Below, piece after piece: positions 45,307-49,243 of a stretch of 64,000 bases of DNA (positions within the stretch are counted from its first letter, which is position 1; every line of letters starts with the position of its first letter). Location of the stretch: positions 9,427,501 to 9,491,500 of the forward strand of contig NC_020126.1 in assembly GCF_000331735.1 (NCBI RefSeq), written 5' to 3'. The position numbers and the translations under genes were made by a program. The notes under the pieces were generated by a model. That model was not told the DNA's origin. It did no database searches and was given only the letters and a program-made list of their open reading frames with translations. The stretch is from Myxococcus stipitatus DSM 14675. Lineage in GTDB: Bacteria > Myxococcota > Myxococcia > Myxococcales > Myxococcaceae.

Positions 45307-45942
45307 TCACGACGGCGAAGCGAGGGCCTCCTCGAATTCCGTGGCGCCCTCCAGCAACACCGCGCAAAGACACGCGGGGCCCAGCAGCGCGGAGAACCCG
45401 TGGGCGCTGCCCACCGTCTTCTCCAGCGCCTCGCCCGGCCAGACCTCGTGACCGGAGTCCTCGCGCAGCCCGCCCTCCAGCACCAGGTTCAGCTCGCGTC
45501 CCAGGTGCGTGTGCTTGGGATAGCGCACGCCCGGGTGGAGCCGCAGCACCGCGGCCATCATCCCCTCGCGCGCGGGGCCCGGCTCCACGGGGAACAACTC
45601 CGAGCCCTCCACCGGCCCCGGCATCCACCGCGACGCATCCCCCAACGACTCCAACATCCGCAGCGAGTGCTCCCGCGACAGGTCGAAGAACGAGGCCACC
45701 GGCTCCGCGAAGCGCTCGAAGCGGCGAGGCCCCTCCATGCGCTCCATCAGCGCCCCCAGCACGGAGGCGGGGGGCTCGACGGGAGGTGTCAACACAGACA
45801 GGGCATCGCGCGCCATGGACAGACGGCGGACTTCGCCCTGGCACCGCGCGCAGTCCGCCAGATGGCGCTCGGCGGCCTCCCGAGCGGGGGGCTCCAGGGT
45901 CTCCAGGACCCACTCCGCCAGGATGTCGTCGAGGTGCGCCAT
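45307..45942 (-). CDS. ChrR-like anti-sigma factor (zinc-finger plus cupin)
   Basis: A 211-aa protein; the ATG at 45942 fits the GAGGGG spacing better than the ATG at 45945 or GTG at 45966. The N-terminal ~75 residues are a ZAS domain with 'AERHLADCARCQGEVRRL' (His-x3-Cys-x2-Cys). The C-terminal half is a cupin, 'LHPGVRYPKHTHLGRELNLV' then 'LEGGLREDSGHEVWPGEAL', with the metal-binding H-x-H...E pattern. ChrR proteins hold an ECF sigma factor and release it on singlet oxygen or peroxide. No sigma gene adjoins it here, so it is an orphan or works with a distant sigma factor. Confidence 0.85.
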   Translation of the reverse strand: MAHLDDILAEWVLETLEPPAREAAERHLADCARCQGEVRRLSMARDALSVLTPPVEPPASVLGALMERMEGPRRFERFAEPVASFFDLSREHSLRMLESLGDASRWMPGPVEGSELFPVEPGPAREGMMAAVLRLHPGVRYPKHTHLGRELNLVLEGGLREDSGHEVWPGEALEKTVGSAHGFSALLGPACLCAVLLEGATEFEEALASPS

Positions 45943-45990
45943 CATCCCCTCTACGGAAGCCTCCACCGCTCTGGATTTCTCCGCGGACGC

Positions 45991-46880: not shown

Positions 46881-47186
46881 TCAACCGTGCGCGGCTTCGG
46901 GCTCCACCAGGGGAAACGTCTGCGTCGCGATTTCCCCGTGCAGGGAGCGGGGCGCCACGTCCACGGCGCCGTGACCTTCCAACTCCACCACTCCGGGCGT
47001 CACGTGCCGGATGCGGGACAGCGGCACCTGGCCCCAGTGCCGGCTGAGGAGCCAGCGGCGCAGGTAGAGGTGCTCTCCGCTCACGCGCGTCACGTACCCG
47101 AGGAAGGTCCCCGCGCCGTCCCGCACGCGCATGCCACTGACGATGGAGCGCCGCTCATAGGGCGACGCGGTTTCGGGCCAGGCCAT
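46881..47186 (-). CDS. PRC-barrel-like small protein
   Basis: A 101-aa protein from the ATG at 47186, preceded by AGGAGGTGG. The core 'SGMRVRDGAGTFLGYVTRVS' and 'EHLYLRRWLLSRHWGQVPLS', then 'RIRHVTPGVVELEG', reads as the short beta-barrel of PRC/RimM-like domains, often found in stress-related or membrane-adjacent proteins. No membrane span. The function is open. It sits between dapD and the selenoprotein on the same strand, 65 bp from dapD. Confidence 0.65.
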   Translation of the reverse strand: MAWPETASPYERRSIVSGMRVRDGAGTFLGYVTRVSGEHLYLRRWLLSRHWGQVPLSRIRHVTPGVVELEGHGAVDVAPRSLHGEIATQTFPLVEPEAAHG

Positions 47187-47370: not shown

Positions 47371-47607
47371 CTAGCCGTCCAGGGCGCGCGCGACCGCGTC
47401 CACCACCTCCTGGTCCGTGGGGAAGGCGAGCGAGTCCTTGCGGACGACCACCTTCCCGTTCACGGCGACCTCGTAGCTCCCGGAGGGCCCCGTCTTCAGC
47501 TCCGCCACCACATCCAGCTCATCCTTCAGCGCGACCGCCGCACGGGCGGCCCGAGGCCTGTAGCCTCAAGAACCACAGTAGGTAATCGTCACCTTCGCAT
47601 CGGCCAT
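47371..47607 (-). CDS. Selenoprotein W-like (Rdx family) redox protein with in-frame UGA
   Basis: Read through the TGA at 47566-47568, the minus strand encodes 78 aa from the ATG at 47607 (GAGGA about 9 nt upstream) to TAG at 47371-47373. The start 'MADAKVTITYCGS' is followed by Sec14, then 'GYRPRAARAAVALKDEL' and 'GSYEVAVNGKVVVRKDSLAF' with a C-terminal helix. This is the thioredoxin-like Rdx (SelW/SelT) pattern, in which the redox motif is Cys-x-x-Sec/Cys, and the UGA falls exactly at the second redox position. Both sides of the UGA are coding in one frame and match one short family. Conventional ORF calling stops at residue 13. The exact role of bacterial SelW proteins is unsettled; a thiol redox function is inferred. 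Confidence 0.88.
47533..47568 (-). promoter_or_regulatory. Candidate bacterial SECIS stem-loop after the UGA
   Basis: Starting 14 nt after the UGA codon, minus-strand RNA can form a 7-bp stem (GGCCGCC with GGCGGUC, one G-U pair, 47533-47551) closed by the loop CGUGC, which contains the G-U that SelB needs in known bacterial SECIS elements. The spacing is close to the ~11 nt of E. coli fdhF. A second small hairpin, GAGGC/GCCUC, directly overlaps the UGA. This fits Sec decoding, but hairpins are common at this GC content. Confidence 0.5.
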
Positions 47608-47631
47608 GGTGCGTTTCCTCGAGTGTGCCGG

Positions 47632-47645
47632 GTGTCGCGCGACAC
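47632..47645. promoter_or_regulatory. Perfect 14-bp palindrome upstream of the selenoprotein
   Basis: GTGTCGCGCGACAC reads the same on both strands and lies 24 bp upstream of the selenoprotein ATG. It could be an operator. High GC content makes short palindromes frequent, so confidence is low. Confidence 0.3.
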
Positions 47646-47800
47646 GCGCGTCCCTCCTCGGGGAGATAATGCGTTTCATGCGCCGGGGCCAGCCTGTCCG
47701 CTGGGCGGGCAGGTGAGACATCCCACGAAGCAACCTCTCTCTCGGGTGTGCACGGACCCGAGGACGCGGGCGCGGAGCGAGGCTAGGTTGTCGCGCTACC

Positions 47801-49243
47801 ATGACCGACTTCCGTGAGCGCATCACCGCCGCCTATGACGCCGAGTCGTTCCGTCGCCAGGGACGCCAGCTGGTGGAGTCCCTGGCGGACTACCTGGCCC
47901 AGGCGCAGCGCGGTGACGGCCTGCCCGTGCTGCCGTGGGCGTCGCCCGCGGTGAACGTGGACCGCTTCGCCACGGCCTTCCCCGAGGAGCCCACGGGGAG
48001 CTTCCCGGAACTCGTGGCGAGAGTCCTCTCCGGCTCCAATCACTTGCATCACCCGCGCTACGTCGGCCACCAGGTGACCGCCCCCGTGCCCCTGGCCGCG
48101 CTGTGTGACGCCGTCTCATCCCTGCTCAACAACGGCATGGCTGTGTATGAGATGGGCCCCGTCTCCACCGCCATGGAGCGCCATGTGTTGCGTTGGATGG
48201 CCGCGCGCCTCGGCCTGCCGGAGACGGCGGATGGTGTGCTCACCTCGGGCGGCTCGCTGGGCAACCTCACCGCGCTGCTCGCCGCCCGTCAGGCCAAGGC
48301 CGGCTACGACGCGTGGAACGACGGCGCCCACGCGGGCCCGCCCCTCGCCGCGCTGGTCGCCTCCACCGCGCACTACAGCCTCTCGCGCGCCACGCGGGTC
48401 ATGGGCTGGGGCGCCCAGGGCCTCATCCCCGTCCCCGTGGATGAGCACTTCCGCCTGCGCCCGGAGGCCCTGGCCCCCGCGCTGGAGAAGGCCACCCTCG
48501 CGGGACGCAAGGTCATCGCCGTCGTCGCCAGCGCCGGCTCCACCGCGACGGGCGCGTTCGACCCGCTGGAGGCCGTGGCCGACTTCTGCGAGCAGCACGG
48601 CCTGTGGTTCCACGTGGACGCCGCCCACGGCGCCTCCGCGGTGCTCAGCGCCCCCCACCGCCACCAGGTGCGCGGCCTCGACCGCGCCGACTCCATCGTC
48701 TGGGACGCGCACAAGGGCCTGCTCATGCCCGCGCTCATCACCGCCGTCCTCTTCCGCGACGGCGCGCGCTCGTTCGAAGCCTTCGCCCAGGAGGCCAGCT
48801 ACCTCTTCGAGGGCACCGAGCGCCCCTGGAGCGACGTGGCCCAGCGGACGATGGAGTGCACCAAGGAGATGATGGCGCTCAAGCTCTACACGTGCCTGAG
48901 CGTGCTGGGCACGCGCCTGTTCGCCGACGCGGTGACGGAGTCCTACGCCCAGACGCGCCGCTTCGCCGAGCGCCTCTCCGCCACCAGCGACTTCCAGGTC
49001 CCCGTGTCGCCCGACTGCAACATCCTCTGCTTCCGCCACACCCCCGCGCACGTCCCCCCGGAGGAGTGGGACGGATTGCAAGCGCGGCTGCGCGAGCGGC
49101 TGGTGACGCGCGGCGACTTCTACCTGGTGCAGACGAAGCTGCCCGGAGGCGTGTACCTGCGCGTCACCCTCATCAATCCGCTCACCACCGACGCGGACCT
49201 GGACGCGCTCATGGAGGCCCTCAGGACGGCAGCTCGACGGTGA
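47801..49243 (+). CDS. PLP-dependent amino-acid decarboxylase (group II)
   Basis: A 480-aa enzyme of the group II decarboxylase fold. Hallmarks: substrate-side 'HPRYVGHQVTAPVPLAALCD', 'TSGGSLGNLTALLAARQAK' (phosphate binding), 'VASAGSTATGAFDPLEAVAD', 'WFHVDAAHGAS' (His stacking and Asp on the pyridine N), and the Schiff-base lysine in 'IVWDAHKGLLMP'. Related enzymes decarboxylate glutamate, aromatic amino acids, 2,4-diaminobutyrate or aspartate; I cannot choose among these. It is cytoplasmic. Its last 23 bases overlap the end of the converging hybrid kinase gene. Confidence 0.92.
   Translation: MTDFRERITAAYDAESFRRQGRQLVESLADYLAQAQRGDGLPVLPWASPAVNVDRFATAFPEEPTGSFPELVARVLSGSNHLHHPRYVGHQVTAPVPLAALCDAVSSLLNNGMAVYEMGPVSTAMERHVLRWMAARLGLPETADGVLTSGGSLGNLTALLAARQAKAGYDAWNDGAHAGPPLAALVASTAHYSLSRATRVMGWGAQGLIPVPVDEHFRLRPEALAPALEKATLAGRKVIAVVASAGSTATGAFDPLEAVADFCEQHGLWFHVDAAHGASAVLSAPHRHQVRGLDRADSIVWDAHKGLLMPALITAVLFRDGARSFEAFAQEASYLFEGTERPWSDVAQRTMECTKEMMALKLYTCLSVLGTRLFADAVTESYAQTRRFAERLSATSDFQVPVSPDCNILCFRHTPAHVPPEEWDGLQARLRERLVTRGDFYLVQTKLPGGVYLRVTLINPLTTDADLDALMEALRTAARR

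Follow-up and report, generated by a model that had tools for sequence, protein, structure and literature searches.

A SelW-like gene of Myxococcus stipitatus with an in-frame UGA that is very probably read as selenocysteine

A small gene of Myxococcus stipitatus almost certainly encodes a 78-residue SelW/Rdx-type protein, into which selenocysteine (Sec) would be inserted at UGA codon 14 by way of a SelB-bound hairpin. To judge from its sequence, the UGA very probably specifies selenocysteine in what would be a SelW-like redox protein. Its reading frame, family, machinery genes, conservation, hairpin, predicted fold and selection were all computed. The gene lies in a 64-kb window (the whole stretch of DNA that was analysed), whose positions are used below.

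47371..47607, minus strand: selW-like putative selenoprotein gene, 78 aa, with Sec predicted at residue 14 and a TAG stop (translation, Rdx/TIGR02174 matches, relatives, predicted fold).
47566..47568, minus strand: in-frame TGA, very probably read as selenocysteine (C-G-S-U); TGA at this codon in 74/74 Sec-type family sequences.
47615..47620, minus strand: Shine-Dalgarno-like GAGGAA, 7 nt before the ATG, read from the sequence.
47533..47551, minus strand: candidate bSECIS hairpin with a 7-bp stem GGCCGCC/GGCGGUC, a 5-nt loop CGUGC (47540-47544) and 21 nt from UGA to loop (folding, family comparison).

The gene starts with an ATG at 47607-47605 and passes an in-frame TGA at 47568-47566 (codon 14), which is followed by 64 codons and a terminal TAG at 47373-47371, all on the minus strand. 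The translation reads MADAKVTITYCGS-[TGA]-GYRPRAAR..., 78 codons and then TAG, with the redox motif C11-G-S-[TGA14] in the context Y-C-G-S-[TGA]-G-Y. The plus strand of 47371-47607 does not encode the SelW-like protein. A first-pass annotation had placed the gene at exactly these coordinates and left the strand unstated, which is now settled as minus; it had also described a Shine-Dalgarno sequence before the ATG, a stop 64 codons past the Sec and a single frame on both sides of the TGA, and these descriptions hold, with GAGGAA upstream, TAG at the end and a read-through product that matches Rdx and TIGR02174 across the TGA. Under table 11 the locus yields a 13-codon stub from the ATG, or an 86-aa frame (47566-47826) that begins upstream and ends at the TGA. 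This is hence a conserved gene hidden under the standard code, which would report the stub. It is single-copy in the M. stipitatus genome, where the second-best match has an E value of 0.7.

Membership of the SelW/Rdx group, which had been proposed at first pass together with a search of the 78-aa product, is borne out by that search. With Cys substituted for Sec, the read-through product scores 45.3 bits against Pfam Rdx (PF10262; cut-off 22.6; residues 5-73) and 47.8 bits against TIGR02174 (CXXU_selWTH; cut-off 34.2), and both matches span the TGA. It falls below the cut-off of the NCBIfam equivalog NF041051 (SelTWH_Campy; 60.3 vs 88 bits), as do two relatives, L102 (69.7 bits) and L087 (65.8 bits). 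The solved chain that it matches best in sequence is that of human C17orf37/MIEN1 (2ljk, E 5.2e-8), followed by mouse SelW (2npb, E 0.0028). An AlphaFold2 model, built from a nine-row alignment with Cys at position 14, has a pLDDT of 84.2 and a pTM of 0.71, and comprises a strand (6-11), a helix (17-31), three strands (35-40, 45-49, 52-56) and a helix (65-77); in this predicted thioredoxin-like fold the CxxU residues C11 and U14 sit just after strand 1. Foldseek returned 23 rows for the model at E <= 0.001 (TMq 0.66-0.85), all of them chains of eight entries: mouse SelW 2npb, human MIEN1 2ljk and the bacterial 3dex, 2obk, 2oka, 2ojl, 2fa8 and 2p0g. These share the thioredoxin-like fold of the model, but at low identity (22-32%) to the M. 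stipitatus protein. Thioredoxins and ERp57 rank below the SelW-type structures in the list. The titles of five of the eight entries name SelW, SelW-related, Se-binding or MIEN1 proteins (2fa8 and 2p0g SelW-related, 2obk a putative Se binding protein), while 3dex, 2oka and 2ojl are presumably Cys-type Rdx proteins. On its sequence matches and predicted model, the product is classed as a SelW/Rdx-type thioredoxin-fold protein.

The first-pass annotation had further predicted a working Sec system and suggested a check for selA, selB, selC and selD. All four genes are present above cut-off in the M. stipitatus genome (one contig of 10,350,586 bases), at separate chromosomal places. SelA scores 558.8 bits, SelB 292.7 bits (316 when joined; cut-off 242) with its wing domains present, and SelD 385.8 bits with no internal stop. 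The tRNA-Sec scores 66.3 bits in the genome search (cut-off 47) and has the anticodon tca (UCA) according to ARAGORN; the claim for it rests on that score and anticodon, because the E threshold of the search was reached by a match in 14 of 14 control genomes, five of which also had one above the cut-off. Scans of the entire 64-kb window with Rfam and for tRNAs gave no matches, so the machinery genes are located in other parts of the chromosome.

Downstream of the UGA lies a hairpin of the bacterial SECIS type. Counting the U of the UGA as 0, bases 17-23 pair with bases 29-35 around the loop CGUGC, and the stem begins 14 nt behind the UGA. The criteria given for bSECIS elements include a loop of 3-9 nt, a stem of 4-16 bp, a G in the first two loop positions, a distance of 16-37 nt from the UGA and an MFE <= -7.5 kcal/mol (PMC13188914). 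The M. stipitatus hairpin lies within those bounds, with its loop of 5 nt, stem of 7 bp, spacing of 21 nt and G at loop position 2, and the MFE of the hairpin segment is -13.7.

Across relatives the stem shows compensatory changes. In the 74 family sequences all seven stem pairs form in 61, six in 10 and five in 3. Pair 20-32 is C-G in 58, U-A in 10 and U-G in 6, and pair 17-35 is G-C in 63, A-U in 6, G-U in 2 and A-C in 3. Overall 96.9% of cells are paired, a share that drops to 25.1-71.4% once the partners are slid by 1-3. Double-sided changes affect 16 cells, spread over two pairs, whereas the slid controls show no more than 2 such cells, in one pair. RNAalifold gives a 6-pair consensus at -8.9 kcal/mol for the family. 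In 22 distant sequences, taken in the same register, seven pairs form in 14, six in 5 and only two or three in 3; here 22 cells are double-changed in the true register vs 17 at a slide of -3. A G occurs within the first two positions of bases 24-28 in 96/96 sequences, bases 25-26 being GU in 83 and GG in 13, and a G at the loop start agrees with the published bSECIS model (PMC13188914). The loop codon is CGT in 64/74 family sequences, although this codon is otherwise rare: in ten genes of the window, 17 of the 337 Arg codons are CGT.

Synonymous resampling, based on window codon usage, showed that the hairpin folds better than expected in 65/74 family sequences (mean z -1.26), with z at 0 or more in the other nine; since the sequences are related, these z-scores are not independent. 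Twelve other windows treated in the same way had mean z values of -0.32 to +0.81. Taken alone, the M. stipitatus hairpin gives a moderate signal under synonymous resampling (z -1.47, 5%) and does not stand out from dinucleotide shuffles, 34 of the 200 folding equally well (z -0.90).

By analogy with the family, from which Sec insertion in the cell, the redox chemistry, the partner and the location are taken, decoding would run as follows. A ribosome would reach the UGA at codon 14, where the hairpin behind it would be bound by SelB carrying Sec-tRNA-Sec, which SelA would have produced using the selenophosphate supplied by SelD. Sec would then be inserted at the UGA and translation would continue to the TAG. 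The CxxU product would most likely be a cytosolic thiol/selenol redox protein, in which a selenenylsulfide may form and then be reduced by a low-molecular thiol or thioredoxin.

Conservation of the TGA was assessed in a family set of 96 genomes and a phylum set of 195. A selW match (E <= 0.001) was found in 74/96 family genomes, at 47-99% identity; 74 of the 75 matches hold exactly one TGA, and the exception is a tandem Cys paralogue in genome G046, with no TGA. In each of the 74 Sec-type sequences (M. stipitatus included) there is one stop in the match and it is a TGA at the same codon, invariant across these distinct sequences while the neighbouring codons vary, with C at -3, G at +1 and Y at +2 in 74/74. 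Across the phylum 97/195 genomes have a match, and of the 98 matches 96 have one TGA, one has none (the G046 paralogue) and one, in G151, has a TAA. In G151 the gene has Cys at the site (YCAPCGY), and its TAA is the terminal stop. The 22 further, distant matches from other families are all CxxU, with scores down to 32 bits. Cys homologues at the Sec site are thus the G046 paralogue (CVTC) and the G151 gene (CAPC). In G046 both forms stand side by side, a Sec-type SelW and the Cys-type paralogue (YCVTCNY) lying about 150 nt apart in tandem (L087, G046:C44:127673-128265).

The Sec form of SelW goes together with SelA across genomes. A selA gene was found in 93 of the 96 genomes carrying Sec-form selW, the three others being G009, G083 and G106 (80, 87 and 92% complete). 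Put the other way, the phylum set has Sec-SelW in 93/150 genomes with selA above cut-off vs 3/45 of the remainder. G151, the sole genome in which the Cys form stands alone, is 98% complete and gave no match to selA. In the family set, tRNA-Sec reaches at least 61 bits in 72 of the 74 genomes with Sec-SelW and is absent at that score in G049 (90% complete) and G083 (87%).

Many bacteria show some UGA read-through, and near-cognate suppression could in principle place Trp or Cys at the codon, with no selenium involved; Cys at the site would indeed make an ordinary CxxC Rdx protein. We regard this as very improbable in a genome that encodes tRNA-Sec(UCA), SelA, SelB and SelD, for a codon followed by a hairpin of the published bSECIS form (PMC13188914), and given that the Sec form co-occurs with SelA while the SelA-less G151 has a Cys codon.

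Purifying selection acts on the sequence past the TGA. Over codons +13 to +39, M. stipitatus compared with eight relatives gives uncorrected pN/pS values of 0.11-0.48. The pooled uncorrected value past the hairpin is 0.19 for all pairs of 28 sequences (27 from the genus itself, plus L053, which belongs to a neighbouring one), so this stretch is translated. The pooled value contradicts the reading in which the TGA is an ordinary stop, giving a 13-residue peptide followed by the decaying relic of a Cys-type Rdx gene, even though table 11 yields only the stub from the selW ATG. That reading is extremely improbable, because relics do not keep one stop without gaining others, and the sequence past the TGA persists in 74/96 family genomes with one TGA each. 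UGA is still used as a stop, as 46 of the 74 family selW genes end in TGA, 26 in TAG and 2 in TAA. As for a sequencing error or strain-specific mutation of TGC/TGT, one base away from TGA, its probability is negligible when 96 matches from 96/195 genomes carry the in-frame TGA, in 96/96 at the CxxU site.

The surroundings of the gene and other possible uses of the Sec system were also considered. The selW neighbourhood gave no functional lead among the 104 loci compared. A divergent PLP decarboxylase occurs near selW in 46/104 loci, which vary in length, several being too short to reach the decarboxylase and some sharing a genome. Two neighbouring genes in the M. stipitatus window are listed here.

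45307-45966, minus strand: ChrR-like anti-sigma factor with a cupin domain, beside dapD (Cupin_7 28 bits, cut-off 27; TIGR02451 42 bits, below cut-off).
46881-47186, minus strand: 101-aa protein between dapD and selW (no Pfam/NCBIfam match at E 0.001; present in 20/104 loci).

Two genes separate the ChrR-like anti-sigma factor from selW.

That SelW might be the only selenoprotein was rejected, as 16 family genomes without SelW retain selA above cut-off. Seven of these have a TGA-containing formate dehydrogenase and nine have neither (G014, G015, G024, G037-G039, G044, G050 and G088). Family-wide, 41/96 genomes have a formate dehydrogenase alpha match that contains an in-frame TGA; the M. stipitatus genome has no FdhA above cut-off. 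A search with AhpC-TSA covered five genomes, and in M. stipitatus 1 of 18 matches contains a TGA.

L170:2535-3032 = G000:C1:1995034-1995531, minus strand: ResA/TlpA-like thioredoxin-fold, lipoprotein-like gene with Sec predicted at codon 63, U-H-A-C (AhpC-TSA search, hairpin).

Its motif is WAPG-U-HAC (UxxC), and a perfect 7-bp stem with the loop AGUUG lies 16 nt behind the UGA. Read in frame, it matches AhpC-TSA (40.8 bits, cut-off 26) and Redoxin (38.2, cut-off 26.6); its best match, ResA, is below cut-off (58 of 170 bits), and it is far below that of the NCBIfam ResA-like WAxxUGC family NF041054 (26 of 300 bits). Relatives with the same TGA occur in G024 and G044. This UxxC gene is probably a second selenoprotein of M. 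stipitatus. TGA-containing thioredoxin-like genes may explain the retention of selA in G024 and G044, while the AhpC-TSA matches of G014 and G038 have no TGA. In the SelW-less G044 an in-frame TGA occurs in four AhpC-TSA-type matches (C15:31690-32094, C22:88975-89301, C26:3878-4168 and C69:16146-16430), one a peroxiredoxin (TPV-U) and three with UxxC, and hairpins were folded for them.

These myxobacteria seem to depend on selenium for redox proteins. It is conceivable, though rather doubtful, that SelW in Myxococcota is locked into its selenium form, with the costly Sec system kept partly for a 78-residue protein and the gene lost rather than converted to a Cys form; if so, the task of the protein would call for selenium chemistry itself and not merely for a faster thiol. 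The genus Myxococcus is amenable to genetic manipulation, and the scarcity of Cys forms (2 of 98 matches) makes Myxococcus SelW suited to asking what selenium does for SelW. The picture of selenocysteine encoding is unchanged by M. stipitatus SelW.

The gene adds to a SelW-like family long known from bacteria, and also from animals. SelW-like proteins were the most abundant selenoprotein family in a Sargasso Sea set, with 48 members (PMC1088965), and a 2006 census counted 10 (PMC1794560). Their function was called unclear, with the CXXU motif suggesting a redox role and an interaction with glutathione found (PMC1088965). SelW genes have been missed by annotation in Epsilonproteobacteria (PMC4607533), and Campylobacter jejuni SelW (CJnc60) is backed by Ribo-seq data, by a peak of termination where the full-length frame stops and by proteomic evidence from past the Sec site (PMC11955535). 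The first-pass annotation overrated the novelty of the gene, CXXU SelW-like proteins being a long-known bacterial selenoprotein family (PMC1088965, PMC1794560). As for myxobacteria, no paper on their SelW was found by title or abstract start in the open-licence PMC literature, which is weak evidence of absence; the text of PMC1794560 has no word starting with 'Myxo', and no word starting with 'myxo' or 'selw' occurs in the main texts of PMC5029168, PMC13188914, PMC12013277 and PMC9312934.

Among known systems, C. jejuni SelW, which had gone unannotated, resembles the M. stipitatus gene in its length of about 80 aa and its single UGA for Sec (PMC11955535). It differs in being epsilonproteobacterial, and its equivalog NF041051 is matched only below cut-off by the M. 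stipitatus protein (60.3/88 bits). The bacterial SelW-like family as described in PMC1088965 and PMC1794560 likewise consists of small CXXU proteins with an in-frame UGA, a SECIS with a G in the apical loop, and both Sec and Cys forms, as here. The host lineage is different, PMC1794560 listing Desulfotalea psychrophila and Geobacter sulfurreducens among SelW-like losses. In the Myxococcota genomes searched, 96 of the 98 matches are Sec forms.
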